Source: Oscillospiraceae bacterium (lineage in GTDB: Bacteria > Bacillota > Clostridia > Oscillospirales > Oscillospiraceae). Taken from it: 44,793 nt of DNA. The DNA is taken from assembly GCA_017457285.1 (NCBI GenBank), contig JAFTHT010000029.1:1-44793 (forward strand), written 5' to 3'. Position 1 is the first letter of the stretch, and every line of letters starts with the position of its first letter. Below are positions 170 to 44,793 of this stretch, one piece after another. A program made the position numbers and the translations under genes. The notes under the pieces are model-generated. The model worked only from the letters and a program-made list of their open reading frames with translations. It searched no databases and had not been told where the DNA came from.

Positions 170-1999
170 ATGGCATTTGATGCTTTTTATCTTTCTGCGG
201 TTCTGGAGGAAATCCGGGCCCTGGGAGAGGCCCGGGTGGAAAAAATCCACCAGCCCAGCCGGGACGCGGTGATTTTGCTGCTCCGGGGCCGGGAAAACCG
301 GGCAAAATTGCTCATCAATCCCAACCCCACCGCTCCCCGGCTCCATCTGACCACCGCCAACCCCGAAAATCCCCCGGAGCCCCCCATGTTCTGTATGCTC
401 CTGCGCAAGCATCTCATGGGCGCCCGGCTGGTGGAAATTTCCCAGCCCCCCATGGAGCGGGCGGCGGAATTTACCTTCGACTGCATCGACGAAATGGGCG
501 ACCCGGTGCAGAAAAAGCTCATCGCCGAGCTGATGGGCCGCACCTGCAACCTGTATCTGCTGGGGGGCGACGGCCGGATCATTGACTGCCTGCGCCGCAT
601 CGGCCTGGACGAGAGCAAACGCCCCGCCCTGCCGGGGCTCCACTACCAAAGCCCCGAGCCGGTGAATAAGCTGCATCCCCTTGCCCCCCTTATTTATGAG
701 GGGCGGGGAGAGAATACCGTTCACAGTATTTCGGACTCCCCCCGACCTTCGCTTCGCTCGGCCACCCCCCTCATAAATGAGGGGGGCGAGGGAATTGCGT
801 TTTATGTAAACCTCCTAAAGGCCCCTGGGGCGGATGTTTTGGCGGACCGGCTGATGGATATGCTGGGAGGCCTTTCTCCGCTGGTGTGCCGGGAGGCGGC
901 GCTGTACGCCCTGGGCGATACCGACGGCCGGGTGGAAAACGCCGATTTGCAGGCCGCGGCGGAGAAGCTGTGGCTGTTCTTCCGGGAGCATCTTAGCCAC
1001 CCGGCCCCCTACTACACCGCCAAGCAGTTCGCCTTCTGCCCCATCCGTCAGTACGGAGAATGTTTCAAATCCGACAGTTTTTCTGGTCTTTTGGACAGTT
1101 TTTACGCCCTCCGGGACAGAAAAGACGCCATGCGCCAGAAAAGCCAGGCGGTTCGCAAAACCGTTTCGAACCTGTGCCAGCGGCTGACCAAAAAGTTGGC
1201 CATCCAGGAAAAGGAGCTGGCCGCCACCTACGACCGGGAGCGGCTGCGGCAGCTGGGGGACATCCTCACCGCCAACATCCACCGCATCACCAAGGGCCAG
1301 ACCAGGGTGGAGGTGGAGGATTTTTACGATGAGAACATGAGCCTCATCGAAATCCCCCTGTCGCCCCTGCTGTCCCCCCAGCAGAACGCGGCGAAATTCT
1401 ACAAGGATTACGCCCGGATGAAAAACGCCGAAAAGGAGCTGACCCGGCAGATGGACATCGGCCGGGAGGAGCTGAGCTATCTGCAAAGCGTCCTGGAGGA
1501 GCTGAACCGGGCCCAAACGGAACAGGAATTGGAAGAAATTCGTCAGGAGCTCCAGGCCGGGGGCTATGTGAAGGCGGATTCCGGCAAAAAACGCATCAAG
1601 CAGAGCAAGCTGCCCCCCATGCGGTTCGAATCCACCGACGGCTACCCCATTTATGTGGGACGAAACAACCGGCAAAATGACGAATTGACCTTCAAACTGG
1701 CACGAAAAGACGACATTTGGCTCCACGCCAGCAAGGTCCACGGCTCCCACGTCATCATCTCCTGCGGCGGCACCCAGCCCCCGGACGACACCGTGACCCA
1801 GGCGGCCCAGCTGGCGGCCTACTACTCCGAAACCGCCGGCGGCCAGAATATTCCCGTGGATGTAACGCCGGTGAAGCAGGTGAAAAAAGTCCCCTCGGCG
1901 AAGCCCGGCATGGTGATCTACCACAGCTACCGCACCGTCATCGCCAACCCCTACAAGGACATCGTGGTGGACGAATTAAACGCGGAAAAGAAAGCGTGA
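170..1999 (+). CDS. rqcH: NFACT-family ribosome quality control protein RqcH (Rqc2/FbpA homologue)
   Basis: RqcH binds stalled large ribosomal subunits and recruits tRNA-Ala to add C-terminal alanine tails that mark the nascent chain for degradation. The N-terminal NFACT-N region carries FCMLLRKHLMGARL (about residues 74-87) followed by Q-x-x-x-E-R (E96, R97), where the described B. subtilis motif is D-R. A helical middle (about 300-460) follows, and then the C-terminal NFACT-R domain with YPIYVGRNNRQNDELTF and DIWLHASKVHGSHVII. At 609 residues it is slightly longer than usual. The excess maps to about residues 169-210, where a family A repeat is read in frame (see finding). The ATG at 170 has GGAGG seven bases upstream. 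Function is from family knowledge; whether the inserted protein works is unknown. Confidence 0.93.
   Translation: MAFDAFYLSAVLEEIRALGEARVEKIHQPSRDAVILLLRGRENRAKLLINPNPTAPRLHLTTANPENPPEPPMFCMLLRKHLMGARLVEISQPPMERAAEFTFDCIDEMGDPVQKKLIAELMGRTCNLYLLGGDGRIIDCLRRIGLDESKRPALPGLHYQSPEPVNKLHPLAPLIYEGRGENTVHSISDSPRPSLRSATPLINEGGEGIAFYVNLLKAPGADVLADRLMDMLGGLSPLVCREAALYALGDTDGRVENADLQAAAEKLWLFFREHLSHPAPYYTAKQFAFCPIRQYGECFKSDSFSGLLDSFYALRDRKDAMRQKSQAVRKTVSNLCQRLTKKLAIQEKELAATYDRERLRQLGDILTANIHRITKGQTRVEVEDFYDENMSLIEIPLSPLLSPQQNAAKFYKDYARMKNAEKELTRQMDIGREELSYLQSVLEELNRAQTEQELEEIRQELQAGGYVKADSGKKRIKQSKLPPMRFESTDGYPIYVGRNNRQNDELTFKLARKDDIWLHASKVHGSHVIISCGGTQPPDDTVTQAAQLAAYYSETAGGQNIPVDVTPVKQVKKVPSAKPGMVIYHSYRTVIANPYKDIVVDELNAEKKA
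676..800. mobile_element. Family A palindromic element inserted in frame in rqcH
   Basis: The arms (ttgcccccct..tttatgagggg and ccacccccctcataaatgagggggg) flank an inner spacer whose reverse complement, CCGAAATACTGTGAACGGTA, matches the spacers of the elements at 24684-24808 and 28868-28992. It encodes roughly 42 residues (LAPLIYEG...TPLINEGG) between the NFACT-N domain and the helical middle of RqcH without interrupting the frame. The AAATGATTGTTTAG-type outer termini are absent. Confidence 0.85.
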
Positions 2000-5129: not shown

Positions 5130-5367
5130 GTAAATGATTGTTTAGAGTAGGAAGCACCCCTTGCCCCCCTCATTTATGAGGGGGGTGGCCGAGCGAAGCG
5201 AAGGTCGGGGGGAGTCCGAAAGATGTTACGAATTCGCCGAAAACGTACACAAAATCATAACCTTCTAACGCATGCTCCCCCAGTCACGGCTTGCGCCGTG
5301 CCAGCCCCCTCATAAATGAGGGGGCCAAGGTCCTGGTGCATAGCCAGGCCGCTAAACAATCATTTAC
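5130..5367. mobile_element. MITE-like element with 16-bp inverted termini and family A interior
   Basis: Perfect termini GTAAATGATTGTTTAG (5130-5145) and CTAAACAATCATTTAC (5352-5367) bound 206 bases. The interior holds a family A left arm (5161-5215, TTGCCCCCCTCATTTATGAG...GGTCGGGGGGAGT) and a chimeric right arm (cagtcacggcttgcgccgtgccagc, then cccctcataaatgaggggg). It encodes no protein. Together with the preceding hairpin it fills the gap between 5061 and 5428. Confidence 0.8.
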
Positions 5368-6100: not shown

Positions 6101-6342
6101 ATGATTGTTTAGTGGCCTAAAACGGCGCACCCAGCTACAACAACCATGTCATTGCGAGGCCGCAGGCCGTGGCAATCTCCTGGTACAACTTTGGTCCTAA
6201 TTTGCACCAAAATCTATGGATAATCCCGTTCTACATTGTACGTTCATCGAACTTTTTCCTTATCGTAGATGATACCGGGAGATTGCCACGGCCCTTCGGG
6301 CCTCGCAATGACATCCTAATCTGATACGCTAAACAATCATTT
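6099..6342. mobile_element. MITE-like element with the same termini but family B interior
   Basis: AAATGATTGTTTAG (6099-6112) and CTAAACAATCATTT (6329-6342) match the 5130-5367 element. The interior is unrelated to that one: it is a pair of family B palindromes, gtcattgcgaggcc...gtggcaatctcc (6148-6180) and its inverted partner gagattgccacggcc...cctcgcaatgac (to 6312). The left terminus overlaps the stop codon of the DUF421 gene. No gene lies inside. Confidence 0.82.
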
Positions 6343-11200: not shown

Positions 11201-14200
11201 ACCTTCACCGTCACCCTCTCCGGCGTTGGCACCGCCAATGCCACCTTCCCGGCCAAGGGCATGGTCAGCTCTGTCACCACCGACGGGCAGGGCCAATTCA
11301 CCCTGGAGCTGGGCCACGCCCAGCAGGTGGAGGTGACGAATCTCCCCGCCGGCACCATTGCCACGGTGGTGGAGCAGACCCCCGGCCCCGGCTTCACCGC
11401 CACCTATTGGGAGAGCGGGCTGGCCGGCGACGGCATCGTGACCATCGTTAAGGACCAAATTTCCAATGTGACCGTCCTCAATACCTATGAGCCCACCAGG
11501 GTGGACCCGGTGACCATCACCCTCACCGGCAAAAAGACCCTGGTCACCGAGGGTGCGGACTGGAACGGGGCCGAATTCCAGTTCCAGCTCCAAAAATGGG
11601 ACGGCGCCGCCTGGCAGACCATTGCCACCGCCACCGCCAACGAGCAGAATCCCACCTTCGATTTCAGCGCCGCCCTCCAGGCGGAGCCCTTCACCGCCCC
11701 CGGCACCTATGCCTACCAGGTTCTGGAAACCAATGGTGGCCAGACCATCGATGGCATCACCTACGATGCCACCCTCCACACCTTCGGTGTCACCGTGGCG
11801 GATGCCGACATGGACGGCAAGCTGGAAATCGCCGCCGTCACCTCCCACCACTCCGGCAAGGAGTTCGGGCAGGACGGCCAGGGCAATTGGAATATCGAAA
11901 TTTCCTTCCAAAACCACTACGAAGCCAGCGACGCCCTGGTCTACCTGGACGTTTTCAAGGAGCTTCGCAACCCCACCGGCAGCCCCCTGGTGAATCTCAG
12001 CGGCTACCGCTTCGGCCTGTATGATGCCGTCACCGGCGCGCTGTTTGCCACCTCCGAGCTGACCGACTCCGTGGGCAATGCCCGGTTCATCCTGACCTAC
12101 GGCCTGGAGGACGAAGGTTCCCACCGCTATTACCTGAAGGAAATCGTCCCCGAAAACCCCATTCCCGGCATGATTTACGATGAAAAGCAGTACCTGGTCA
12201 CCGTGGAGGTCACCGACAACGGCGACGGCACCACCAGCGCCACCATCGACAGTGAGATGGAGGTTCCGGTGTTCGTCAACGAATATCTGCCCACCGCCAC
12301 GGAGCTGGAAATCGACTTCGTTTCCAAGGAGCTGACGGGCCGGGATCTGGCCCAGGGCGAATTTACCTTCCAGCTGGAGGGCCAAGGTGTGCTGCTCACC
12401 GGCACCAACGATGCTTCCGGCAAGGTCACCTTCTCCGATAAGCTGTATTTCAACGCCGTGGGCCAGACCACCTATACCATCGTGGAAACCGGCACCGATG
12501 AAAACGGCGTTACCACCGACAAGACCCGTTACACGATTTTGGTCACCGTCACCGATGTGGGCGGAACGCTCCAGGCCTCTTATCAGGTGCTGAATGTGGC
12601 GGGAGATCAAATCACCTTCCACAACACCTACAAAGCCACCCCCGTGACCTATGCTATCGCCGGCACCAAGTACCTGGAGGGCCGGAGCCTGCTGAACGAG
12701 GAGTTCACCTTCTCCCTGGCCACCCACAGCGGCACCGTGCTGCAGCAGGTGAAGAATTTCGCCGATGGCACCTTCGCCTTTGCCCCCATGCGCTTCACCG
12801 CCCCCGGCCAGTACCGGTATCTGGTTTGGGAGGAGCTGATTCCCGCCGACCAGGGCATCACCTTCGATGAAACCGTCTACGATGTGACCATCACCATCGC
12901 CGATGATTTGCTGGGCAATCTGTATGTGTCCGATGTGACCTACGGCGACCGGGATGCCATCACCTTCGTCAACACCTACACCCCCGCCCCTGTGCAGGCC
13001 ACCTTCGAGGGTCTGAAGGTATTGGAGGGGAAGACCCTGACCCCTGGCGCGTTCACCTTCGCCCTGTATGCCTCCAATGAAAATTGGGAAACCATCGAAA
13101 TTTTGGAGCAGGTGACCAACGCTGCCGATGGCGCCTTCGCATTCGGGGCCATGGAATACGGGACCCCCGGCAGCCGCTACTATCTGGTAACGGAAGTGGG
13201 CGGCGGCGAAACCATCGACGGCGTGACCTACGATTCCACCGTTTACCGCATCTGGGTGAACGTGACGGATAACGGCCTGGGCAACCTCGATGCCTTCACC
13301 CACATTCTGGATGCCGAGGGCAACGAGCTGCTGACCATGGTGTTCCGCAATTCCTACACCGCCACCGGCACCCTGGAGGTGCCCCTGGAGGGCCAAAAGA
13401 CTCTGCTGGGCCGGGATTTGGCGGCCGGGGAGTTCACCTTCACCCTCTATCAGGATGGCCTGGCCCTGGAAACCGTTGCAAATGACGGGGACGGACGCTT
13501 CTTCTTCGAGCCCCGGCAGTTCCATGGGGTGGGGCAGTACACCTTCCAAATCAGAGAAGATTTGGGAGATGATGCCACCATAACCTACGACCCAGCCTGC
13601 TACGATGTAACCATCATCGTCGGCGACGATGGTCTGGGCGGTCTGGTGCTGGAGTCCGTAGCCCTGACCAAGGACGGCGCAGCCGCGGAGCAAATCCACT
13701 TCGAAAACACCTACGAAGAGCCCCCCACGGAGCCCACGGAACCCTCCACGGAGCCCACGGAACCCTCCACGGAGCCCACGGAACCCTCCACGGAGCCCAC
13801 GGAACCCTCCACCGAGCCTACCGAGCCCAGCACCGTTCCCACGGAGCCCTCCACCGAGCCTACCGAGCCCAGCACCGTTCCCACGGAACCCTCCACCGAG
13901 CCCACGGAGCCCAGCACCGTTCCCACGGAACCCTCCACCGAGCCTACCGAGCCCAGCACCGTTCCCACGGAACCCTCCACCGAGCCCACGGAACCCAGCA
14001 CCGTTCCCACGGAACCCTCCACGGAGCCCACGGAGCCCAGCACCGTTCCCACGGAACCCTCCACCGAGCCCACCGAACCCAGCACCGTGCCCACGGAACC
14101 CTCCACCGAGCCCACACCGCCGGAGGAGGACATCCCCCAGACCGGCGATGCATCCCTGACCGGCTGGCTGGCCCTGCTGACCCTGACCTGCGGCGGTGCC

Positions 14201-14287: not shown

Positions 14288-14419
14288 GTCATTGGGAGGA
14301 GGCCGTAGGCCGACGTGGCAATCCGTTCTTAAAAAGATTCCGAAATCAACGAGTTTATTGGATAAATCACAACTTTGAGAAAACGGATTCCCACGGTCGC
14401 TTCGCTCCCTCGGAATGAC
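14288..14419. repeat. Family B palindromic element
   Basis: It starts gtcattgggaggaggccgtagg...gtggcaatccg and ends with the inverted ggattcccacggtc...ctcggaatgac, with about 60 bases between the arms. It lies in the convergent gap between the adhesin and the symporter gene. Confidence 0.75.
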
Positions 14420-21895: not shown

Positions 21896-22280
21896 ATCGT
21901 CATTGGGAGGACGATCCGTTCCCATTCGTAGGAGCGATTCATGAATCGCCCGTAAATAACTGGAAGCCCCCTTGCCCCCCTCATTTATGAGGGGGGTGGC
22001 CGAACGAAGCGAAGGTCGGGGGGAGTCCGTGACAAAGAGAAGAGAGAAGCCTGCTTTCGTAGAGGCCGATGCCCATATCGGCCCTGCGGAATTACCGATG
22101 GGTAAAAAGAGCCGATGTGGGCATCGGCCCTTACGCTGATTATTTTAATATCATCCCCGAAGGGGATACCTCAACTATTCATTATTCATTCTTCACATAC
22201 CACAGACTCCCCCCGCCCCTCCGGGGCACCCCCCTCATAAATGAGGGGGGCAAGGAGAGCTATCGTAAACAATCATTTTT
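21896..22280. mobile_element. Nested composite of palindromic repeats with a DUF559-element relic
   Basis: Parts in order are a partial family B arm (from about 21898), a family A left arm (21972-22026), family D palindromes (22047-22134), and an AT-rich stretch. That stretch, read in reverse, resembles the 5' end of the DUF559 gene at 39370. A family A right arm (22206-22254) and the terminus TAAACAATCATTTTT (22266-22280) follow. It accounts for most of the 480-bp gap before the next gene. No intact gene lies inside. Confidence 0.7.
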
Positions 22281-23686: not shown

Positions 23687-23724
23687 AATTTTCTTCCTCC
23701 TAAAAATATGTAATGTTAATTTTT

Positions 23725-23819
23725 GTCATTGCGAGGAGCGAAGCGACGTGGCAATCTCCTGAGGATACCGGAAACCTTTGGGGATTGCCACACCAGTCTG
23801 CGGACTGGTTCGCAATGAC
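23725..23819. repeat. Family B element inside the NfeD-SPFH operon
   Basis: It runs from gtcattgcgaggagcg...gtggcaatctcc to the inverted ggggattgccac...gttcgcaatgac, filling the space between nfeD and the SPFH gene. Being transcribed, it could form a hairpin that changes the ratio of the two products. Confidence 0.85.
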
Positions 23820-23826
23820 AGTGTAA

Positions 23827-24663: not shown

Positions 24664-24836
24664 ATTGTTTATAGTAGCCCCCCTTGCCCCCCTCATTTAT
24701 GAGGGGGGTGGCCGAGCGATGCGAAGGTCGGGGGGAGTTCGAAATATTGCAAATTGTATACTCCCCCCGCCCCTTCGGGGCACCCCCCTCATAAATGAGG
24801 GGGGCAAGGGGGATTCCTATTCTAAGCAATCATTTA
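24658..24836. mobile_element. Family A element with degenerate inverted termini
   Basis: The termini TAAATTATTGTTTAT and CTAAGCAATCATTTA are diverged versions of the 5130-5367 ends. The interior has the two family A arms (24684-24738 and 24760-24808) and the spacer TCGAAATATTGCAAATTGTA. It lies directly upstream of bioY. Confidence 0.8.
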
Positions 24837-26306: not shown

Positions 26307-26558
26307 GTCATTGCGAGGCCGCAGGCCGTGGCAATCTCCCGGTATAACCTTATGGAATTTGAAATTCAAAGGGATAAATAAACTTAATAACCTGGTGTTA
26401 CCTTCTTAAAAAAAATGGACATTTTGTCCAACCTGCTACCAGGAGATTGCCACGGCCCTTCGGGCCTCGCAATGACAGAGGGGGGCGGATTGCCACAGCC
26501 TGCGGCCTCGCAATGACAGAGAGGGGCGGATTGCCACGGCCTGCGGCCTCGCAATGAC
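26307..26558. repeat. Family B array: one pair plus two extra half-copies
   Basis: It starts with gtcattgcgaggccgcaggcc...tctcc, then the inverted gagattgccacggcc...ctcgcaatgac. Two further tandem inverted halves (gcggattgccac..gcctcgcaatgac) follow with a period of about 40 bp. The array occupies the divergent gap between uppP and the two-component system genes. Nothing else is recognised between 26251 and 26629. Confidence 0.85.
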
Positions 26559-27418: not shown

Positions 27419-28845
27419 TGAAGACCACATACAGCCGTATTTTTGTGGCGGCTATGGTGGTCCTGCTGCTGTCGTTGCTGTGCGTGGGCTTCTTCCTGCG
27501 GACCTTGCTGGAGGATTACCTGGACGACAGCGCCTTCGACCGGCTCTCCGGAGATGCCAAGGTCATCTCCCAGCTGGCGGCGGCCTATTATACCGACGGC
27601 TCCATGTCCAACATAGATTTCCTGATCAACGTGGACATCGCCGGCGAGGTTTCCGATGCGGATTTGGTCATCTGCGACAGCGGCGGCAAGATTCTCCTCT
27701 GCTCCGAGGATTTGATGGACTGCCCCCACAAGGGTCTTGTGGTGAGCAAGGATTATTTGGATAATGTCACCCAAAACGGCAGCGCCCAGGCCACTGGCGT
27801 GATTCAGGGCCTGTATGAGGACAGCCGCTATGTCTGCGCCGTTCCCATCCGCCTGCCCGACGGCACGATGCAGGGCATCGTCATCGTGTCCCAGCCCCTG
27901 GCCGATAATCAGGCCATTCTGGGGAAAATGACGGAGATTTTTCTGATTGCGTCCCTTTTTGTGACCGCCGTTTCGGTTCTGGTCATTGGTCTCTACGTCA
28001 AGCGCCAGAGCCTGCCCCTGCGGGATATGACCAGGGCCGCCCGTGCCTTTGGCCATGGCAATCTGGAGGCCCGGGTAGAGCAGAAGGATTATTACCCCCG
28101 GGACATCCGGGAAATGGTGCTGGCCTTCAATAATATGGCCTCCTCATTGCAAAAGAGCGAATATCAGCGGCAGGAGTTCGTGGCCAATGTGTCCCACGAG
28201 CTGAAAACACCCATGACCACCATCGGCGGCTACATCGACGGCATTCTCGACGGCACCATCCCCCCGGAGCGGAGCCGCAATTATATGCAAATCGTTTCCG
28301 ACGAAACCAAGCGGCTGAGCCGGCTGGTCCGGAGTATGCTGGATATCTCCCAGCTCCAGACGGAATCCGGCATCCCCGAGGAGAAAAAGACCCGCTTCGA
28401 TTTGGAGGAGGTGGCCGGGCAAATGCTCATCACCTTCGAGCAGAAAATCACCGCCAAGGGGCTGGAGGTGGAGGTGGATATGCCGGAGCATCCGGTTTGC
28501 ACCTTCGCCAATGCCGACTATGTGTCCCAGGTGATTTACAATTTGCTGGATAATGCGGTAAAATTCTGCCCCACCGGGGGCGTTTTGGGTCTGAAAATGA
28601 AAGAAGGCGGCGGAAAAGCCTACATTTCCATCTACAATGACGGCCAAACCATCCCGCCGGAGGAGCTGCCGCTGGTTTTCGACCGATTCCACAAAATCGA
28701 TAAAAGCCGCTCCGAAAACCGGGATGGCTGGGGCCTGGGGCTGTATATCGTCAAGACCATCGTCTGCGCCCACGGGGAAAACATCTCCGTCACCAGCCGG
28801 GATGGCAGGACGGAATTTACTTTTACCATGCCCCTGGTGATTTGA
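27418..28845 (+). CDS. Membrane sensor histidine kinase (PhoR/HAMP type)
   Basis: The 475-residue kinase pairs with the regulator just upstream. It has transmembrane helix 1 (about 8-28), an extracellular sensor region of about 140 residues, helix 2 (about 174-194), a HAMP linker, and HisKA with the phosphoacceptor H260 in FVANVSHELKTP. The ATPase domain has N box NLLDNAVKFC and G boxes WGLGLYIV. The sensor region (GEVSDADLVICDSGGKILLCSED) looks PAS/dCache-like, with no clear ligand motif. The TGA stop (28843-28845) lies in the left terminus of a family A element, so the final residues may have changed on insertion. Confidence 0.93.
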
Positions 28846-29005
28846 TTGTTTAGATTAGAAAGCCCCCTTGCCCCCCTCATTTATGAGGGGGGTGGCCGAG
28901 CGCAGCGAAGGTCGGGGGGAGTTCGAAATATTGTGAATGGTATCCTCCCCCCGCCCCTTCGGGGCACCCCCCTCATAAATGAGGGGGGCAAGAAGGGCAA
29001 TCATA
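28843..29005. mobile_element. Family A element between the kinase and HtrA-like genes
   Basis: The left terminus TTTGATTGTTTAG starts in the kinase stop codon; the right terminus is degenerate (caatcat near 28998). Arms are at 28868-28922 and 28944-28992, with spacer TCGAAATATTGTGAATGGTA. It is read through in one frame, producing a false N-terminal extension of the downstream gene. Confidence 0.8.
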
Positions 29006-30249: not shown

Positions 30250-30320
30250 TAAATGATACGCTTCTTGCCCCCCTCATAAATGAGGGGGGCAAGGGGGCTT
30301 CCTATTCGAAACAATCATTT
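30250..30320. mobile_element. Minimal family A half-element with terminal sequences
   Basis: TAAATGAT at 30250 and GAAACAATCATTT at 30308-30320 bracket a single arm (ttgcccccctcataaatgaggggggcaag). It appears to be an internally deleted relative of the other termini-bounded elements. Confidence 0.65.
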
Positions 30321-32121: not shown

Positions 32122-32224
32122 CCCCCCTGTGGATACCCTATGCCCCGGAACGGCCATATATGATTTTTGAGTGTTTCATGATTTTACCAGCGTGTCGATA
32201 AAGTGGTAAATGCTGAAACACTCT

Positions 32225-32357
32225 GTAGGGGAGGGTCTTGACCCTCCCTCACTCTTCGACGATTAGGGAGCTGGTCCTGTGTGAGTTGCTACGTTTTTGC
32301 ACTGATTTTTTCTGCTCTGTCCCGTTACGTTGAGGGAGGGTCAAGACCCTCCCCTAC
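32225..32357. mobile_element. Family C inverted pair upstream of dnaA
   Basis: The left palindrome (32225-32250, GTAGGGGAGGGTCTTGACCC then tccctc) and its exact inverse (32332-32357) flank about 80 bases. The structure is a BIME-like pair and matches the arms around the RAYT gene at 42873. The 32158-32581 gap also holds a cgacagtctgcgg block (32388) and the dnaA promoter. Confidence 0.88.
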
Positions 32358-32492
32358 AGAAGGTGTGCTATCGCAAACACTTTTCGACAGTCTGCGGCGG
32401 GGATAAATCCACGCCCGGTGATATCATAAATATCACCAAATTCCCTCCCTGTAACCTTAATTCTTATATATAATGTATCACCCAAAAAAACC

Positions 32493-35360: not shown

Positions 35361-35366
35361 TCTACT

Positions 35367-35499
35367 GTAGGGGAGGGTCTTGACCCTCCCTCAACGTAGG
35401 ATGATTGAATCGTAAAAATCGCTACGAAACCGGATCGGTTCACACAGAATCGACAGCCCAGTCGTCGAAGGGTGAGGGAGGGTCAAGACCCTCCCCTAC
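35367..35499. mobile_element. Family C inverted pair between dnaN and the S4 gene
   Basis: Palindromes at 35367-35392 and 35474-35499 are exact inverses of each other and identical in core to 32225-32357. The pair starts seven bases after the dnaN stop, inside what is normally a continuous operon, so its hairpins may cause partial termination or RNA processing. Confidence 0.88.
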
Positions 35500-35532
35500 A
35501 AAAGCACTCTTTTTAGTTACAAGGAGATTTGA

Positions 35533-36873: not shown

Positions 36874-37362
36874 GTCATTGCGAGCAAGTTCGCACATTTG
36901 GAAAAAAACGAATGTCATTGCGAGCCAGTCCGCAGACTGGCGTGGCAATCCCCTGAGGTTTCCGATATCCTCAGGAGATTGCCACGCATCTTCGCCCTCG
37001 CAATGACAGAAAAAAACATAGGTGAAATCTATGCATTATTACGTATATATCCTGACAAATTCCAACAAAAATGTGATTTACACCGGTGTGACCAATGATT
37101 TGATCAGGCGTGTGTATGAACACAAACATCACTTGGATAAAGGCAGCTTTACAGATATATATAATGTAGAAAAACTGGTCTATTACGAAGAAACAAATGA
37201 TATCAAATCCGCCATTGAACGGGAAAAACAAATCAAGGGCTGGAATAGAAAGCATAAAAATAAACTGGTCGAAAGCAAAAATCCCCAGTGGGTGGATTTG
37301 TATGAAGGTCTCCTTTAACTGAGGGGATTGCCACGCCAGTGTGCGCACTGGCTCGCAATGAC
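36874..37362. mobile_element. Family B element carrying a GIY-YIG nuclease gene
   Basis: Left arms (36874-37007, including gtcattgcgagccagtccgc...tggcaatcccct at 36914) and an inverted right arm (37321-37362, ggggattgccacgcc...ctcgcaatgac) enclose a single gene. The arms next to the gene are complementary, so the unit has the design of a nuclease gene between cognate inverted repeats. It sits between recF and gyrB and ends about 24 bases before the gyrB start. Confidence 0.8.
37031..37318 (+). CDS. Small GIY-YIG endonuclease-like protein
   Basis: The 95-residue single-domain protein has YVYILT near the start, IYTGVTNDLIRRVYEHK as the second half of the GIY-YIG motif (VYI and YTG here) with a following arginine, and the UvrC/YhbQ-like ending KQIKGWNRKHKNKLVESKNPQWVDLYE. 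ATG 37031 is supported by AGGTGA six bases upstream. It is markedly more AT-rich than its neighbours, pointing to transfer. Flanking by inverted family B arms suggests it propagates or has been carried by these repeats. Confidence 0.88.
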   Translation: MHYYVYILTNSNKNVIYTGVTNDLIRRVYEHKHHLDKGSFTDIYNVEKLVYYEETNDIKSAIEREKQIKGWNRKHKNKLVESKNPQWVDLYEGLL

Positions 37363-37386
37363 ATGACTTTTCACAGGAGGAAGAAA

Positions 37387-39309
37387 ATGTCTGACGAAAA
37401 AGTAACACAGGAATATGGTGCGGAGCAGATTCAGGTTCTGGAAGGCCTGGAGGCTGTTCGGAAGCGGCCGGGTATGTACATCGGCTCTACCTCCAGCAGC
37501 GGTCTGCATCATCTGGTTTATGAAATTGTGGATAACTCCATCGATGAGGCCCTGGCGGGCTACTGCAAGCACATCACCGTCACCATCAACCCCGGGGATT
37601 CCATCACCGTCACCGATGACGGCCGTGGCATTCCCGTGGACATTCAGGCCCAGACCGGCAAGCCCGCTCTGGAAGTGGTGTTCACCGTGCTCCACGCCGG
37701 CGGTAAGTTCGGCGGCGGCGGCTACAAGGTTTCCGGCGGCCTCCATGGCGTGGGCGCTTCTGTGGTCAATGCCCTGTCGGAGTGGCTTCGGGTTCGGGTC
37801 CACAAAAATGGCAATATCTACGAAATGAAGTTCGCCCGGGGTCATATCACCCAGGAAATGACCATCGTGGGCAAAACCGACAAAACCGGCACCGAGGTTA
37901 CCTTCCAGCCCGACCCGGAGATGTTCGACACCACCGAATACGACTATGAAATCCTCCACACCCGGATGCGGGAGAAGGCCTTCCTGACCGCGGGCCTCAG
38001 CATCTCCATTACCGACAACCGGGGCGAGGAGCCCATGGGCGAAACCATGTGCTACGAAGGCGGCATCCGGGAGTTCGCCACCTGGTGCAACCGGAACAAA
38101 ACCCCCATCCACGAGGACGTTATCTACATGAGCGGCAACAAGGGGGATGCCTCCGCGGAAATCGCCATTCAATATAACGACGGCTACAACGAATTTATCC
38201 TCAGCTTCGCCAACGAGGTCAACACCCCCGAGGGCGGTATGCACGAAACCGGCTTCAAGACGGCCCTGACCCGGGTTCTGAACAACTACGGCGTGAAAAA
38301 CGGCATCATCAAGGGCGACGACAAGGTCACCGGCGAGGACTGCCGGGAGGGTATCACCGCCATCATCTCCGTGAAGCTGACGGATGCCCAGTTCGAGGGC
38401 CAGACCAAGGCCAAATTGGGCAACGCCTACATTCGGACTCTGGTGGACAGCATCGTTTCCGACCAGCTGGCCACCTATTTCGAGGAGCATCCGGCTACCG
38501 CCAAGACCATTCTGGAGAAGGCTATGATGGCCAACCGGGCCCGGGAAGCCGCCCGGAAGGCCCGGGACTCCATCCGCCGCAAGACCGGCCTGGAATCCGG
38601 CCAGATGCCCGACAAGCTCCAGGACTGCAACGAGCGGGACCCCAGCCTCTGCGAAATTTACATCGTCGAGGGTGACTCCGCTGCGGGCTCTGCCATCCAG
38701 GGCAGAGATTCCCGATTCCAGGCGATTTTGGCCATGTGGGGTAAAATGCTGAACGTGGAAAAGGCCCGGGCCGACAAAATCTACGGCAACGACAAGCTGT
38801 ACCCCCTGATCGTGGCCCTGGGCGCGGGCATCGGTGAGGAATTTGACATCGAAAAGCTCCGCTACCATAAGGTCATCATCATGTCCGATGCGGACGTGGA
38901 CGGCGCCCATATCCGGACGCTGCTGCTGACCTTCTTCTTCCGCTATATGCGGCCCCTGATCGAGAACGGCTACGTCTATTCCGCTGTGCCCCCTCTGTAC
39001 AAGCTGAAGCGGGGCAAGACGGAGCGGGTCGCCTATTCCGATGAGGAAAGAGACCAGGTTTCCGCCGAAATGCGGGGCGAAACCGGTGCAAAGGTTGACA
39101 TTTCCCGGTTCAAGGGTCTGGGCGAAATGGACCCCCACGAGCTGTGGGAAACCACCATGGACCCGGAAAAGCGGACCCTCCGCCGCATCACCCTGGACGA
39201 CGCCATCCGGGCCGACGCCATCTTCACCGTCCTCATGGGCGAACAGGTGGAACCCCGAAAGGAATGGATCGAGCGCAACGCAAAATACGCGATCAATATT
39301 GATATTTGA
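37387..39309 (+). CDS. gyrB: DNA gyrase subunit B
   Basis: This is the ATPase subunit of gyrase, which with GyrA introduces negative supercoils. The 640-residue protein has the GHKL ATPase motifs VRKRPGMYIGST, YEIVDNSIDEA, DDGRGIPVD and GGKFGGGGYKVSGGLHGVGASVVNALS. The TOPRIM domain has EGDSAAGSA and MSDADVDGAHIRTLLLTFFFRYM, and the end is GEQVEPRKEWIERNA. ATG 37387 is preceded by CAGGAGGAAG. The length is that of short bacterial GyrB without the enterobacterial insertion. Confidence 0.98.
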   Translation: MSDEKVTQEYGAEQIQVLEGLEAVRKRPGMYIGSTSSSGLHHLVYEIVDNSIDEALAGYCKHITVTINPGDSITVTDDGRGIPVDIQAQTGKPALEVVFTVLHAGGKFGGGGYKVSGGLHGVGASVVNALSEWLRVRVHKNGNIYEMKFARGHITQEMTIVGKTDKTGTEVTFQPDPEMFDTTEYDYEILHTRMREKAFLTAGLSISITDNRGEEPMGETMCYEGGIREFATWCNRNKTPIHEDVIYMSGNKGDASAEIAIQYNDGYNEFILSFANEVNTPEGGMHETGFKTALTRVLNNYGVKNGIIKGDDKVTGEDCREGITAIISVKLTDAQFEGQTKAKLGNAYIRTLVDSIVSDQLATYFEEHPATAKTILEKAMMANRAREAARKARDSIRRKTGLESGQMPDKLQDCNERDPSLCEIYIVEGDSAAGSAIQGRDSRFQAILAMWGKMLNVEKARADKIYGNDKLYPLIVALGAGIGEEFDIEKLRYHKVIIMSDADVDGAHIRTLLLTFFFRYMRPLIENGYVYSAVPPLYKLKRGKTERVAYSDEERDQVSAEMRGETGAKVDISRFKGLGEMDPHELWETTMDPEKRTLRRITLDDAIRADAIFTVLMGEQVEPRKEWIERNAKYAINIDI

Positions 39310-39319
39310 GAAAAGTGCC

Positions 39320-39841
39320 TTGCCCCCCTCATTTATGAGGGGGGTGCCCCGAAGGGGCGGGGGGAGTCTGTGAAACACGAAGTAAATAATGAAAAGTACG
39401 CAAAAGAACTCCGTCAAAACCAAACCCCCTGGGAACGAAAATTATGGTATTGCTTTCTAAAGCAATATCCCGTCCGATTTCAACGACAAAAGTGTATTGA
39501 TAATTATATTGTAGATTTCTACTGTTTTCGGGCAAAACTGGTCATAGAATTGGACGGCGGCGGACATTACGACCCTGAATCGGAGCGCAAAGACGCATTC
39601 AGAACATCAGTTTTGGAGAAATATGGGTTGAAAGTGCTGCGTTTTTGTAATTTAGATATAGATAAGAAATTTTACGGTGTATGTACCGTGATAGATGAAG
39701 AAGTGAAAAAAAGGATTTAGTATACTCCCCCCGGCGCTGCGCGCCACCCCCCTCGTAAACGCGGGGGGCAAGAAGCGGAGAAAATTAAGTATACTCCCCC
39801 CGGCGCTGCGCGCCACCCCCCTCATAAATGAGGGGGGCAAG
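39320..39841. mobile_element. Family A element carrying a DUF559 nuclease gene
   Basis: The left arm (39320-39367, TTGCCCCCCTCATTTATGAG...ggggcggggggagt) and two tandem right arms (39724-39771 and 39793-39841, actccccccggcgc...gaggggggcaag) are inverted relative to each other. They enclose one gene exactly where the gene-less family A copies have a 21-25-base spacer. It separates gyrB from gyrA and ends about 28 bases before the gyrA start. Confidence 0.85.
39370..39720 (+). CDS. DUF559-type endonuclease-like protein
   Basis: This 116-residue protein of the DUF559 family has a Vsr/PD-(D/E)XK-like fold. Diagnostic parts are RQNQTPWERKLWYCFL, RFQRQKCIDNYIVDFYC and KLVIELDGGGHYD, giving likely metal ligands D49, E60 and D62 with H66. 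A DNA-cutting role is inferred from the family. It starts with GTG 39370, whose ribosome site GGGGAG is part of the repeat arm. AT-rich composition contrasts with gyrB and gyrA. Placement between inverted family A arms suggests it is the mobility gene of this repeat family. Confidence 0.85.
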   Translation: MKHEVNNEKYAKELRQNQTPWERKLWYCFLKQYPVRFQRQKCIDNYIVDFYCFRAKLVIELDGGGHYDPESERKDAFRTSVLEKYGLKVLRFCNLDIDKKFYGVCTVIDEEVKKRI

Positions 39842-39869
39842 AGGGGGTGCAACATTATGGAGGTGCTCT

Positions 39870-42338
39870 ATGGCACACAATCGCAGTTACAAGCCTGAGG
39901 ATATCGCCTTTCCGAATCAGCAGATTACCGAATCTCTGCTGGTGGACGAAATGGAGAAATCCTACATTGAATACGCCATGTCCGTTATCGTGGGCCGGGC
40001 TCTGCCCGACGTGCGGGACGGCCTGAAGCCGGTCCACCGCCGGATTCTCTACACCATGTACGAATCCGGCCTGACCTCCGATAAGCCCTTCAAAAAGTCC
40101 GCCACCTGCGTTGGTGACGTGCTGGGTAAATACCACCCCCATGGTGACGCTTCCGTTTACGATGCCATGGTGCGTCTGGCCCAGAATTTCTCCATGCGCT
40201 ATATGCTGGTGGACGGCCACGGTAACTTCGGCTCCGTGGACGGCGACCCGGCGGCGGCTTACCGTTATACCGAGGCCCGGCTGAGCAAGCTCTCCAACGA
40301 GATGCTCCGGGACATCGACAAGGAAACCGTCAATTGGGACCCCAACTTCGACGAATCCCGGAAGGAACCCCGGGTCCTGCCCAGCCGGTTCCCCAATCTG
40401 CTGGTCAATGGCTCCAGCGGCATCGCCGTTGGCATGGCCACCAACATCCCGCCCCACAACCTGACGGAGGTCATCAATGCCTGCGTGGCGGTGATCGACG
40501 ACCCGGAATGCTCCATGGTGGACCTGATGGAGCACGTCACCGGCCCCGACTTCCCCACCGGCGGTATCATCATGGGCCGCAGCGGCATCCGGGCGGCCTA
40601 CGCCACCGGCCGGGGCAAGGTGGTGGTCCGGGCCCGGACGGAATTTGAAGAATTTGGTAAGGACCGGGTGCGAATCATCGTGTCCGAGCTGCCCTACCAG
40701 GTCAATAAGCGGCAGCTCATCAAAAAAATCGCCGAGCAGGTCAAAGACAAGCGGCTGGAGGGCATCTCCGACCTCCGGGACGAAACCGACCGCAACGGTA
40801 TGCGGATGGTCATCGAGCTGAAAAAGGATGCCAACCCCCAGGTGGTGCTGAATAACCTCTTTAAGCAGACCGACCTGCAGAGCAGCTTCGGCATCATCAT
40901 GCTGGCGTTGGTTGATGACCAGAAACAGCCGAAAATCCTGTCTTTGCGGCAGATTTTGGATGAATATCTGAGCTTCCAGATGGATGTTTTGACCCGCCGG
41001 ACCCAGTATGACCTGAAAAAGGCCCAGGAGCGGGCCCACCTGTTGGAGGGCTTGCTCATCGCCCAGGACAACATCGACGAGGTCATCCGCATCATCCGCT
41101 CCGCCTACGACGATGCCAAGGAGCGGCTGTGCGAGCGGTTCGGTCTGGACGAAATTCAGGCTCAGGCCATTCTGGATATGCGGCTGAAAGCCCTCCAGGG
41201 TCTGGACCGGGAGAAGCTGCAGAACGAATTTGACGAGCTCCAGGCGAAAATCAAATACTACATCGAACTGCTGGAGGACCCGGTGAAGCTGAAGGGCGTC
41301 CTCCGGGAGGAGCTGATCGCCATCCGGGACAAGTTCGGCGACAGCCGGAAAACCGAGATCCAGGATGTGGAGGACGAAATCGACATCGAGGATTTGATCG
41401 TGGAGGAGCAGTGCGTCTTTACCATGACCTCCGCCGGCTACATCAAGCGGACCCCCGCCAGCGAGTACGCCGCCCAGGGCAAGGGCGGCATGGGCAAGAA
41501 GGGCATGGCCACCCGGGACGAGGACTATGTGACCACCGTGTTCACCGCCTCCAGCCACGACCATATCTTCTTCTTCACCAACAAGGGCCGGGTCTTCCGG
41601 AAGAAGGGCTACCAGATCCCCGAGGCCGGCCGCACCGCTAAGGGTACGAATATTGTAAATATTATCCAGGTTGACCCCGGTGAAAAGGTTTCCGTCATGG
41701 TGCACGCCCGTGACCTGAATAACGAGGAGCTGTACCTGACCATGATCACCCGCAACGGCACCGTGAAGCGGCTGGAGGTCAGCGCCCTGAAGAATCTGCG
41801 GAACATCGGCATCCGGGCCATCACCCTGGACGAGGGCGACGAGTTGATCGAGGTCAAAGAAACCGACGGCAACTACCGAATCTTCATCGCCACCGCTCAG
41901 GGCTCCGCGGTCTGCTTCGACGAGAACGACGTCCGGGCCATGGGCCGTACCGCCGTGGGCGTTCGGGGCATCAAGCTCCGGGAGGGCGATTATGTGGTGG
42001 CCGCCGCCCGGGCCCATGAGGGCAAGACCGTCCTGTCCATCACGGAAAACGGCTACGGCAAGCGGACCCCCGTGGAGGATTACCGCATCACCAACCGGGG
42101 CGGCCTGGGCGTGAAGAACTACGAGGTCACCGAAAAGACCGGCAAGGTGGTTGGCGTGAAGGTGGTGGACGGCACCGAGGATCTGATGCTGATCACTCAG
42201 TCCGGCACCATGATCCGTACCGATGTCAGCGCCATCCGTGTGGCTGGCCGAGCTACCCAGGGCGTCATCGTCATGCGCTTCAAGGACGAGGGCGACCGGG
42301 TCATCGGCATGGCTCTGGCGGAGAAGGAAGAAGAATGA
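39870..42338 (+). CDS. gyrA: DNA gyrase subunit A
   Basis: The breakage-rejoining subunit has 822 residues. The N-terminal winged-helix region has the catalytic tyrosine Y133 in [11 protein letters not shown], followed by the coiled coil and the C-terminal pinwheel with GQKG-box-like [17 protein letters not shown]. The quinolone-determining segment reads [12 protein letters not shown], so the position matching E. coli Ser83 is alanine (A94) while Asp87 is kept (D98). ATG 39870 has GGAGGTG upstream; a longer frame from 39828 is encoded by the repeat. Its stop overlaps the rnhA start by four bases. Confidence 0.98.
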
Positions 42339-42784
42339 AAACCGTGACCCTCTATACCGACGGGGCCTGCTCCGGCAACCCCGGCCCCGGTGGCTGGGGC
42401 GCCATCCTGGAATACAACGGCCATGAGCTGGAGTTGTCCGGCGGCGAAAAAAACACCACCAACAACCGCATGGAGCTGACGGCGGTGATCAAGGGCCTGC
42501 AGCGGCTGAAGGAGCCCTGCATCGTGGAGCTGTATTCCGACTCCAAGTACGTCATCGATGCCCTGGAAAAGGGCTGGGCCTGGGGTTGGAAGAAGCGGGG
42601 CTGGATAAAATCCGATAAAAAACCCGCCTTAAACCCGGATTTGTGGGAGATTTTGCTATCTTTAACCATGAAACACGAACTCCACTACCACTGGGTCAAA
42701 GGCCACGCCGACAACCCAAAAAACAACCGCTGCGACCAGTTGGCGGTACAAGAATCACAAAAATTCCGTAGGGGAGGGTCTTGA
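42335..42784 (+). CDS. rnhA: Ribonuclease HI with repeat-derived C-terminus
   Basis: RNase HI cuts RNA in RNA-DNA hybrids. The 149-residue protein has [16 protein letters not shown] with D9, MELTAVI with E47, YSDSKYV with D69, [17 protein letters not shown] with H124 and D134, and the [10 protein letters not shown] handle region. The last residues (RRGGS, 145-149) and the TGA stop come from a family C palindrome beginning at 42768, so the native end has been replaced. Catalytic residues are intact. Overlap with gyrA (ATGA) indicates coupling. Confidence 0.95.
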
Positions 42785-43397
42785 CCCTCCCTCTACCTGG
42801 GATGACTGGGTAGGTCAAATCAATGAGTAAAAGCGACGGGAGGGTATTTGTCCTCCCCTACTGGTAGGAACGATGCTGTATCACCGAAAATCTCCCCGGA
42901 TTCCAGGATATGATTACTCCCGGGAGAACTACTATTTTATTACGGTTTGCTGCCATGAAAATGCTTGCATTTTCGGCGCAGTTGGACATCTGAACAGGGC
43001 CGGAGAAATTGCGCAGGAAATGCTTTGCGCTTTACCAACTCACTACACGGATATTGGCATTGTAAAATTTGTGGTTATGCCGAACCATATTCATGCCATC
43101 ATCACAATTGAGGGTGACAATCAACGGCATAGGTTGGATACGATTGTTGGTTTATATAAATCCGGTGTGACCAGGGAAATTCGGAAAATTGTACCGGATT
43201 TGAAAGTGTGGCAGCGATCTTTTCACGATCATATAATCCGAAATCAGCAGCAGTATGAAAAAATATGGACTTATATTGATAATAATCCAATAAAATGGAA
43301 ATTGGATTGTTTTTACAGAGAGTAAATCGAAGATTTTTGCATCAATGAATCAGCTCAATTGAGGAAACGTTGAGGGAGGGTCAAGACCCTCCCCTAC
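42768..43397. mobile_element. Family C element (REPtron) carrying a RAYT gene
   Basis: The palindrome at 42768-42793 and its exact inverse at 43372-43397 enclose a REP-associated transposase gene, with an extra degenerate inner palindrome (gggagggtatttgtcctcccctac) at 42839-42862. This is the standard REPtron architecture. The gene-less pairs at 32225-32357 and 35367-35499 would be its non-autonomous products. Confidence 0.9.
42873..43325 (+). CDS. REP-associated tyrosine transposase (RAYT)
   Basis: The 150-residue Y1-type HUH nuclease of the IS200/RAYT group begins RIPGYDYSRENYYFITVCCHEN, has the metal-binding HIH (H72-I73-H74) in VVMPNHIHAI, VWQRSFHDHIIRN, and the tyrosine-containing helix YEKIWTYIDNNPIKW. 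RAYTs cut single-stranded DNA at REP hairpins and are thought to spread them. ATG 43873-type alternatives are absent; ATG 42873 has TAGGA upstream. The gene is AT-rich compared with its neighbours. Confidence 0.92.
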   Translation: MLYHRKSPRIPGYDYSRENYYFITVCCHENACIFGAVGHLNRAGEIAQEMLCALPTHYTDIGIVKFVVMPNHIHAIITIEGDNQRHRLDTIVGLYKSGVTREIRKIVPDLKVWQRSFHDHIIRNQQQYEKIWTYIDNNPIKWKLDCFYRE

Positions 43398-43703: not shown

Positions 43704-44793
43704 TTAGGTAATCTTCTTGGGGATGCTCAGGACGCAGGCCAGACCAACGACGACCAGCAGGGAAACGCCAATCACGATCAGAGCAGTGGTGTGGTTCTTT
43801 GCTCTCTGAGCGTCAATGTCAGCCTGGGTGGTACCCTGGGTGGGGCTGGCAGTAGCGGCAGTGGAGCCGGTGGTGGGATCGGTAGCCTTGGTGGTAGGAG
43901 CGGTAGTGGGAGCCTGAGTGGGCTCGGTGGTGGGGTCAGTAACCTCGGAGGAGGGCTCGGTAACCTCGGAGGAGGGCTCGGTAACCTCGGAAGAGGGCTC
44001 GGTCACCTCGGAGGAGGGCTCAGTAACCTCGGAGGAGGGCTCAGTGACCTCGGAGGAGGGCTCGGTCACCTCGGAGGAGGGCTCGGTAACCTCGGAGGAG
44101 GGCTCGGTCACCTCGGAGGAGGGCTCGGTCACCTCGGAGGAGGGCTCGGTAGCCTCAGTAGAGGGCTCGGTGGGCTCCACGATGGGGTCATTCACAATCT
44201 TCTCGACCAGGACAGTAGAGGCGTCCAGATCCACGGTGAACTTCAGGGTGCAGTCAGCATCCACGGACAGCTTCATGTTGGAACCCTTGGAAACCAGGGT
44301 AGCAGCCTGACCGATGGTGATTTCATCGCCGCCGAAGTCGATATCCCAGGCGCCGTTGGCAGCGAACTTCACTTCCAGAGCGGAACCGGCGGTAACTTCG
44401 ATTTCCTTGGTGTAGACATTGCCGTTCTTAGCCATCTCGTTGGCGGTGTTGCCGGCTTCCCAGTTCAGGGCGTCGCAGCCCTGGCCAACCAGGGACAGGG
44501 TGTTGATGGCGGAGATATCCACAGCGGGGGGATCCACAGGCTCGGAGGAACCGATGCTGGTGGAGGTGTCGGTCTTGGCTTCGCCGGGATCGGCGTAGAC
44601 GATTTCAGCATTGCCCTTGCCGCCTTCCATGGCGTTCAGGGTAATCCACACGTCCTGGTTGCCGTCCATGGTCATGTCAACGGTCTGGTTGCCGCCGTCG
44701 GCAGCCACGATGACGTTGGGGTAGCCGGCGGGAATCTCCAGCTCATACCAGCCGTCGCCATCGGCGTCGGTCATGGCAGTGCCGGGCCAGGCG
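43704..44793 (-). CDS. Starch-binding cell-surface protein, 5' end outside window
   Basis: This is the C-terminal part of a longer protein: the open frame runs off the window edge with AWPGTAM before the first internal ATG. Visible parts are a CBM26-like starch-binding module (AWPGTAMTDADGDGWYELEIP...VIVAADGGNQTVDM) and an X25/pullulanase-accessory-like beta domain (LSLVGQGCDALNWEAGNTANEMAKNGNVYTKEIEVTAGSALEVKFAANGAWDIDFGG). Ten TEPSSEV repeats, a Thr-rich linker and a C-terminal transmembrane helix with KKIT follow. No LPxTG is present. It resembles the starch-adherence proteins of gut clostridia (Ruminococcus bromii type). A role in binding starch at the cell surface is inferred. Confidence 0.8.
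   Translation of the reverse strand, partial: AWPGTAMTDADGDGWYELEIPAGYPNVIVAADGGNQTVDMTMDGNQDVWITLNAMEGGKGNAEIVYADPGEAKTDTSTSIGSSEPVDPPAVDISAINTLSLVGQGCDALNWEAGNTANEMAKNGNVYTKEIEVTAGSALEVKFAANGAWDIDFGGDEITIGQAATLVSKGSNMKLSVDADCTLKFTVDLDASTVLVEKIVNDPIVEPTEPSTEATEPSSEVTEPSSEVTEPSSEVTEPSSEVTEPSSEVTEPSSEVTEPSSEVTEPSSEVTEPSSEVTEPSSEVTDPTTEPTQAPTTAPTTKATDPTTGSTAATASPTQGTTQADIDAQRAKNHTTALIVIGVSLLVVVGLACVLSIPKKIT
43938..44147 (-). repeat. Coding tandem repeat, TEPSSEV x10
   Basis: Ten near-identical 21-bp units encode the seven-residue linker repeat of the starch-binding protein. Composition and unit length match the linkers of the adhesin (13711-14112) and the 2237-3493 protein. Confidence 0.9.

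Follow-up and report, generated by a model that had tools for sequence, protein, structure and literature searches.

Whether unrelated nucleases can share the repeat-bound life style of the REP-associated tyrosine transposases (RAYTs; REP, repetitive extragenic palindrome) is the question raised by a stretch of 44,793 nucleotides from an Oscillospiraceae bacterium (GenBank assembly GCA_017457285.1, contig JAFTHT010000029.1), the whole of which is here called the window. Genes for a GIY-YIG nuclease, a DUF559 nuclease, and a RAYT-like protein sit there between the neighbors recF, gyrB, gyrA, rnhA, and remB, accompanied by inverted repeats of families B, A, and C, respectively. A first-pass annotation had described them as three parallel units. 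This observation is confirmed and extended below, and its interpretation is partly supported: the proposed parallel with RAYTs and REPs holds as a strong association of arm and nuclease in many genera and several phyla, while dispersal by the nucleases is the best explanation of that association rather than an observed process, its steps of recognition, cleavage, and copying being ones that we infer.

Architecture of the three units

The source assembly (G000, the window being its contig C5) comprises 1.46 Mb and is 66% complete; its close relatives with names in the genome_contigs set are metagenome-assembled genomes (MAGs) of Oscillospiraceae and other Clostridia. The units are composed as follows:

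36874: fragment of a B arm, left of the GIY-YIG unit
36914..37007: gene-less B pair, complete, preceding the GIY-YIG gene; arms 36914-36950 (+) and 36977-37007 (-)
37022..37318 (+): gene for a GIY-YIG nuclease of the repeat-associated clade; in-frame ATG at 37031; Pfam PF01541, 2e-16
37319..37371 (-), core 37326-37362: right B arm, a single inverted arm with its GTC tag facing outward
39318..39367 (+): left A arm, with polypyrimidine hairpin, tip hairpin, and mirror third strand
39370..39720 (+): DUF559 nuclease gene; GTG start; PF04480, 6e-30; predicted fold like that of I-Bth0305I
39724..39772 (-): first of the two right A arms, degenerate
39793..39841 (-): second right A arm
42768..42791 (+): left C palindrome, GTAG-tagged, overlapping the rnhA 3' end
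42838..42861 (-): second C palindrome left of the RAYT-like gene, imperfect
42873..43325 (+): RAYT-like gene
43374..43397 (-): right C palindrome, GTAG tag on the - strand

The DUF559 gene does lie between inverted A arms, as had been claimed, with the correction that there are one left arm and two tandem right arms. For the GIY-YIG gene the description stands on the right, where a single inverted B arm is found, while the left side holds a complete gene-less pair plus a fragment. The RAYT-like gene is flanked by GTAG-tagged inverted REPs (42768-42791 and 43374-43397). It matches Pfam Y1_Tnp at 9e-8 and NCBIfam REP_Tyr_transpos (NF047646) at 1e-21, in the latter case with 77.4 bits and so slightly short of the cut-off of 80; the C unit appears to be a RAYT/REPtron. 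The genes of the A and B units belong to PF04480 and PF01541, and neither is an HUH/tyrosine transposase. Matches to the arm cores in the window numbered 14 for family A (0 in 100 shuffles), 17 for family B (shuffle mean 0.73, largest 3), and 12 for family C (six palindromes, each on both strands; 0 in shuffles). That the units sit between essential genes without breaking them also holds, except that the C palindrome at 42768-42791 supplies the end of rnhA, whose last codons and stop lie within it, so that the gene is intact and the C-terminus of its protein is made of repeat.

Elsewhere in the same genome, a second GIY-YIG gene of the clade, 68% identical to the first, is likewise enclosed by inverted B arms, ~600 bp from a gene-less B pair, and a third, distant GIY-YIG match has no arms. 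Two further DUF559 genes have other hairpins adjacent, one of them (L039) on a single side. B arm copies amount to 188.

Arm type and enzyme type

Over 231 loci, each scored for hairpins in its two 300-bp flanks (one flank sufficing), the relation between arm type and enzyme type is near-diagonal:

DUF559, 114 loci: A-type hairpin in 92, B-type in 8, C-type in 6
Clade GIY-YIG, 39 loci: A-type in 0, B-type in 29, C-type in 2
RAYT-like, 28 loci: A-type in 0, B-type in 1, C-type in 14
YhbQ-like GIY-YIG, 23 loci: A-, B-, and C-type all in 0
HNH, 27 loci: A-type in 0, B-type in 1, C-type in 3

A or B hairpins on both flanks were found at 0 of the 28 RAYT-like and 0 of the 27 HNH loci. Since many arms had been viewed before the flank rules for A and B were drawn up, these counts and the other flank-rule counts are partly circular; their independent anchors are two published repeat definitions together with the off-gene, YhbQ, HNH, and RAYT sets, and the C rule is loose, as the 3 of 27 HNH loci matching it illustrate. 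One DUF559 locus (L031), having no usable flank, was left out. The HNH flanks lay beside the domain match, not the full open reading frame, for 27 of 30 loci in this count, and beside the full frame for all 30 in the inverted-repeat score test, where 1 of 30 exceeded 30. RAYT-like loci of the same genomes (homologs in 34 of 101 genomes at E<=1e-8), taken as a yardstick, exceeded that score in only 6 of 28 cases. The sole HNH gene with inverted flanks (L333, genome G006, score 134) lies between B-variant arms resembling those at that genome's GIY-YIG gene (L010).

The check on co-occurrence proposed along with the three units gave a clear association in 101 genomes of 100 genera. With at least two copies as threshold, the B pattern and the clade GIY-YIG gene were both present in 6 genomes, the pattern alone in 6, the gene alone in 2, and neither in 87 (odds ratio (OR) 44, p=2e-5); counting two weak homologs, the figures become 7, 5, 3, and 86 (OR 40). 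The two genomes that have the clade gene but not the B pattern (G006 and G062) contain variant arms. For the A pattern and DUF559 the corresponding counts are 19, 10, 7, and 65 (OR 17.6, p=3e-8), with a pattern that does not fit the A family of the window itself (G000 has 3 copies). Reversed-pattern controls for A and B were zero everywhere, and off-diagonal associations were weaker (B pattern with DUF559, OR 7.9, and with RAYT, OR 13.5; A pattern with RAYT, OR 5.7, and with GIY-YIG, OR 4.4). Extra copies of the own arm within 16-kb loci appeared in only 10 of 40, local density being a weak test.

Coevolution, likewise proposed as a check, was borne out for DUF559, the enzyme to which the test was applied. 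As arm, this test took whichever polypyrimidine hairpin lay closest to the gene, up to 260 nt away on either side and whether or not it formed part of an inverted pair; 122 of 123 loci had one. Protein and hairpin similarity over these 122 loci correlated with r=0.443, the best of 999 permutations reaching 0.103. Within genomes, 522 of 639 paralog triples, drawn from 11 of 13 multi-gene genomes, were concordant and 117 discordant (0.817), while shuffles within the genome averaged 0.49 and 0 of 300 reached that value. Hairpins follow the DUF559 protein among paralogs, indicating that arm and gene travel together or co-adapt; shared host ancestry would not readily produce this concordance.

The GIY-YIG clade and B-type arms

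At E<=1e-8, GIY-YIG homologs occur in 10 of the 101 genomes of the family set, two of them weak (G028 and G092, about 41 bits, without arms). Six of 12 loci score above 30 and three more show B arms by eye; the distant homologs L003, L011, and L012 have none. Scored with the GIY-YIG profile, the matches in 398 genomes from the window's phylum fall cleanly into a clade above 130 bits and YhbQ-like proteins of at most 61 bits. Five genomes besides the window's own contain clade members, and inspection by eye shows a GTCA-type arm on one or both sides of each (four of five by the strict rule below, one with a score above 30), whereas 0 of 24 YhbQ-like loci are flanked by inverted repeats.

Clade genes also lie between CGTC-type arms in three further phyla. 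In named PLSDB records from Cyanobacteriota, Bacteroidota, and Alpha-, Beta-, and Gammaproteobacteria, 12 of the 14 opened (out of 32) have the gene between inverted repeats scoring above 30, and the other two (L297 and L299) have no inverted repeats there. Viral GIY-YIG loci (L240-L255) exceed 30 in 10 of 14 testable cases, L242 and L243 not being testable; L247-L251 are near-identical, and only L247, L250, and L251 entered the strict-rule and 231-locus counts. Repeats are dense in PLSDB and viral loci, so that the score is less clean there: the 95th and 99th percentiles of the controls are 31 and 53 and their maximum is 58, with L287 (35), L293 (34), and several others below 53. Three PLSDB "plasmids" (NZ_OL790696, NZ_CP119140, and NZ_AP026896, of 4.8, 2.2, and 4.9 Mb) look like chromosomes. 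The Planktothrix clade gene (L287) has a type IIL restriction-modification gene on one side and drmA of DISARM on the other, and the arms at the Neisseria gonorrhoeae gene (L292) are presumably dRS3 repeats.

The strict rule (GTC tag, AT at the stem start, 5-bp stem), itself devised after viewing the arms, found an arm on at least one flank at 29 of 39 clade loci and on both at 23 of 39. Off-gene windows (n=559) gave 52 and 9, respectively, and the YhbQ-like loci 0 of 23. The arm plan consists of GTC, a stem mostly starting with AT, a loop, the paired stem, and then C, as in GTCATTGC..GCAATCC, GTCATTCT..AGAATC, GTCATCCC..GGGATCC, and GTCATTCCC..GGGAATCC. Stem letters covary, both sides changing together. 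Tip hairpins vary widely in sequence yet mostly stay paired (stem of at least 5 bp in 33 of 51 distinct sequences, against 2.7% of shuffles), which fits selection on shape. In the window's phylum the 5-bp outer stem of the arms is topped by a variable tip hairpin, and an uninterrupted 6-bp stem on both flanks was found at 0 of 14 phylum, 7 of 14 PLSDB, and 3 of 11 viral loci. In the protein, R30 and E68 are invariant in an alignment of nine sequences, and the nearest solved relative is the UPF0213 protein 1zg2.

DUF559 and A-type arms

DUF559 homologs (E<=1e-8) occur in 26 of the 101 family-set genomes, and 21 of 29 loci score above 30, for an off-gene control maximum of 28 (n=155). In genome_contigs, where the set consists of the best 80 of at least 564 stretches and thus leans to close relatives, 40 of 78 testable loci exceed 30 against 2 of 750 controls; Bifidobacterium biavatii is among them.

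Arms in Clostridia combine a polypyrimidine hairpin with a third strand, a purine stretch that mirrors the purine strand of the hairpin; the linker contains a variable tip hairpin. Hairpin and mirror strand follow the sequence plan of a published intrastrand triplex motif. Deinococcus DUF559 genes have near-perfect inverted copies of this plan on both sides with no tip hairpin (L303 and L308; L304 less so). By a 6-nt rule, hairpin plus mirror strand was found beside DUF559 at 25 of 29 family loci against 1 of 63 control windows, and at 63 of 78 genome_contigs loci against 64 of 2673; the signal is weak in other phyla and viruses (4 of 12 loci, 5 of 91 windows).

The Escherichia coli DUF559 gene ycjD lies between sapF and fabI; at its stop there is a degenerate triplex-type stretch, and downstream (L301:2998-3033) stands a copy of the triplex motif TM_ECO identical to motif 22 of the E. 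coli list in PMC4666352. At least 80% of the ycjD query was found in one place in 3362 of 5426 E. coli genomes. The locus was rejected as a clean empty/filled polymorphism, because an efflux operon follows sapF in the three others examined (L321-L323).

Residues D49, E60, D62, H66, and D75 are invariant in an alignment of 16 DUF559 sequences. In a fold search of the PDB, the predicted model (mean pLDDT 90) was nearest to NGO0050 (3hrl, E 2e-6) and to the homing endonuclease I-Bth0305I (3r3p, E 2e-5, TM 0.68/0.80), followed by mitoribosomal chains and PvuRts1I (E 2e-3) and by Vsr (1vsr, E 0.17, probability 0.97); a homing-nuclease fold is predicted on this model. Profile matches to cholera-toxin B chains (E 0.04-0.6) were taken as chance.

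Gene-less pairs and occupied junctions

Gene-less copies of each family had been announced for the window, and pairs of all three were found, some alike throughout:

684..786: A pair
5164..5325: A pair
6148..6312: B pair
14288..14419: B pair, degenerate
21975..22250: A pair with a longer spacer
~23713-23820: B pair (listed as 23725..23819)
~24664-24808: A pair (listed as 24681..24808)
26307..26558: B pair with two extra right arms
28864..28992 (~28.86-29.00 kb): A pair
32224..32362: C pair
35366..35500 (~35.35-35.50 kb): C pair

The B pair left of the GIY-YIG gene is 89% identical to that at 23713-23820. Across arm, spacer, and arm, the A pairs at 24664-24808 and 28.86-29.00 kb are 92% alike, and the C pair at 32224-32362 is 78% alike to that at 35.35-35.50 kb in inverted orientation. 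Lesser likeness was found between the B pairs at 6.2 and 26.4 kb (71% only, with gaps) and for the A pairs at 5.1 and 22.0 kb, whose similarity to the 24.7-kb pair is mostly confined to the left arm. Beyond the A arms, an outer flank (ATGATTGTTTAGA.TAGGAAG-like) is common to 5123-5150, 24664-24680, 28843-28860, and 30290-30320; it may belong to the element itself or be an older repeat that the element entered.

The junctions that had been singled out for comparison were followed in congeners, with the window included, and both empty and filled sites were seen, although their ends could not be placed to the base. Between recF and gyrB, 34 loci comprised 4 with GIY-YIG, 2 with DUF559, and 28 with none of the three genes; between gyrB and gyrA, 30 loci comprised 3 with DUF559, 1 with GIY-YIG, 1 with RAYT, and 25 with none; and between rnhA and remB, the 21 loci with both genes seen comprised 2 with RAYT, 1 with GIY-YIG, and 18 with none. 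An independent peptidase-maf junction held GIY-YIG in 2, DUF559 in 2, and none in 26 of 30 loci; of these 26, 13 are gaps of only 14-56 bp, and others contain gene-less B, C, A, or other repeats. The junctions being variously empty, gene-less, or nuclease-filled, the same intergenic sites appear to have been filled repeatedly by different units. In the window, junctions, and annotated records examined, GIY-YIG and DUF559 units are intergenic and not in an intron or intein.

Other gene-less inverted families occupy the same places. One has tandem arms AATTGACAATTG / CAATTGTCAATT, often around a GGTATCGCC-like hairpin, in the recF-gyrB gap (L063, L065, L074, and L079) and the peptidase-maf gap (L373, L386, and L388); others (GATACAAGATAC; GAGTGGAGAGTGGAG and alike) lie at junctions in L070, L078, L056, and L391, and these latter are possibly further nuclease-repeat pairs. 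The window also contains 21-nt tandem repeats at 43704-44774, of which 43872-44207 encodes TEPSSEV repeats within a 356-aa reading frame, and an array similar in kind at 13655-14199.

Proposed dispersal by the nucleases and its alternatives

Considering the pairing, its specificity, the coevolution of DUF559 with its hairpins, the wide distribution, the gene-less pairs, and the repeated occupation of junctions, a nuclease gene and its two inverted arms are rather likely, on this analysis, to form one selfish unit, of which the gene-less pairs would be non-autonomous offspring dispersed by the nuclease, just as REPINs descend from RAYTs. The nuclease would recognize its own arm as extruded structured DNA, namely the CGTC-tagged hairpin in the case of GIY-YIG and, for DUF559, the hairpin with its mirror third strand. 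This would most likely happen while the arm is single-stranded at a fork, and the cut, guided by structure, would fall beside it. Neither fold is known to join DNA, and a new copy would therefore come from break-induced copying or gap repair, that is, from homing-endonuclease chemistry and not from transposase strand transfer. Structure-guided cutting with copy-repair is proposed because both folds belong to homing-nuclease families, GIY-YIG being another such family, which includes branched-DNA nucleases.

Several observations weigh against this reading. No arm was found by the strict rule at 10 of 39 clade GIY-YIG loci, and where there is exactly one arm per side (n=8) the tags face outward in 6 and inward in 2 (L006 and L008). 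The question whether the nucleases occur mostly without arms is answered in the negative for most sets, while DUF559 outside Clostridia scores above 30 at only 4 of 13 loci (3 of the 8 PLSDB loci opened out of 9, and 1 of the best 5 of 12 viral loci). DUF559 also stays at or below 30 at 8 of 29 family loci, six of them without visible inverted arms, and at 38 of 78 genome_contigs loci, although 75 of 78 have a polypyrimidine hairpin nearby; ycjD shows a clear motif on one side only. Neither target duplication, cleavage, nor movement was seen, the congener junctions being too diverged for base-exact ends. Arms without the cognate nuclease, another feared outcome, were indeed found in some genomes with at least two copies: 6 of 12 for B (G004, G035, G052, G061, G090, and G092) and 10 of 29 for A, PF04480 being absent from the nine of these ten searched again (all but G078). 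Examples are G061, 98% complete with 28 B copies, whose sole GIY-YIG match is 616 aa and UvrC-like by length, and G046, 100% complete with 18 A copies and no DUF559. GIY-YIG matches in the B-rich G061, G035, and G090 are all UvrC-length frames; other short GIY-YIG genes were considered as partners in clade-less B-rich genomes and rejected, L201-L203 being unflanked and the remaining matches being long UvrC-like frames and one 287-aa frame. Possible reasons are loss of the enzyme after spread, sequence missing from MAGs, or another spreading agent. The weaker co-occurrence of repeat types with other nucleases suggests, in addition, that some genomes are simply repeat-tolerant.

Such genomes, some of them complete, are what would be expected if causation ran the other way, with repeats spreading by other means and homing nucleases landing in gene-less pairs, to be copied in through the shared arms. 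The membership of both folds in homing-endonuclease families agrees with this, as does the position of the window's GIY-YIG gene next to a complete pair, where it would stand after entry between pairs; yet hairpins at DUF559 paralogs track the protein across genera, and no RAYT-like or HNH locus has A or B hairpins on both flanks, leaving this alternative unlikely. That the nuclease genes are cargo of composites moved by RAYT or by host recombination between repeats would account for the co-occurrence of A and B patterns with RAYT-like genes (OR 5.7 and 13.5, at least two copies). Cargo should mix arms, though, while the pairing is near-diagonal, and according to PMC3733652 no tyrosine transposase gene checked there was flanked by CGTC repeats; we regard this passenger origin as improbable. 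It is still harder to see the arms as bidirectional terminators or mRNA-stabilizing hairpins insulating small genes: they are GC-rich hairpins at gene ends, but they are multicopy, form gene-less pairs, go mostly with their own nuclease type, and are rare or absent at HNH and YhbQ-like genes. Chance or an assembly artefact, finally, is scarcely credible even though many of the genomes are MAGs, in view of the shuffle and off-gene controls and of units in named complete records (Deinococcus, Azospirillum, and Neisseria). Near-diagonal pairing, gene-less pairs, and controls were thus the grounds for rejecting generic terminators, RAYT as mover of the A and B arms, and chance, and dispersal by the nucleases is retained as the best explanation. 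Should the pairing prove causal, each of the two repeat classes would gain a specific small candidate enzyme (about 100 aa), and the question of their dispersal would reduce to a simple oligonucleotide-cleavage and mutation-accumulation test.

Comparison with known systems

A search of open-access literature, with few preprints and no subscription papers, listed among its matches no paper tying GIY-YIG or DUF559 to these repeats. Their position between inverted arms suggests that the two are enzyme partners for repeat classes without a partner in the papers checked. B arms resemble the CGTC-tagged REP superfamily (PMC3733652) in the GTC tag, AT stem start, palindrome, C-initial tail, and inverted dimers, and they show the features by which CGTC REPs are defined (CGTC or TGTC tag, AT-initial stem, palindrome, multiple copies, and inverted dimers). 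They differ in the Oscillospiraceae, where the stem is split and bears a variable tip hairpin instead of running uninterrupted over 8-9 bp to a 4-5 nt loop. CGTC-tagged REPs are said there to "lack a dedicated transposase" (Di Nocera 2013), no dedicated enzyme being reported, whereas the GIY-YIG clade is their candidate partner here. YhbQ/UPF0213 proteins share the GIY-YIG domain, but their genes are without flanking arms (0 of 24; 0 of 23).

A arms, for their part, resemble the intrastrand triplex motif TM_ECO (Holder 2015, PMC4666352), a polypyrimidine hairpin with mirror purine strand, often in inverted pairs, from which the Clostridia arms differ by a tip hairpin in the linker. Triplex folding in vitro is published there for TM_ECO only, the A arms sharing its sequence plan, and the word "nuclease" is absent from the text of that paper. 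The predicted DUF559 fold is like those of I-Bth0305I (EDxHD) and Vsr; differently from I-Bth0305I, DUF559 is free-standing and intergenic, outside any intron or intein, with hairpin repeats as its borders.

Finally, both units share with RAYT/REPIN systems (REPtrons) a small intergenic gene between inverted hairpins, many gene-less inverted pairs, and an arm class specific for the enzyme. The RAYT is an HUH tyrosine transposase with GTAG REPs, whereas the folds of GIY-YIG and DUF559 are unrelated to it, lack HUH/Tyr chemistry, and go with other hairpin classes. Were this borne out, unrelated homing-type nucleases would have reached the REP-like life style of RAYTs. On a broader proposal, which we consider evenly poised between right and wrong, at least three independent enzyme classes would disperse structured-DNA repeats, namely HUH with GTAG REPs, GIY-YIG with CGTC REPs, and EDxHD/Vsr-like DUF559 with triplex repeats, the latter two by structure-guided cutting and copy-repair without a strand-transfer enzyme, and these would be a source of many dispersed bacterial hairpins, including those of Neisseria type and the E. 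coli triplex repeats.

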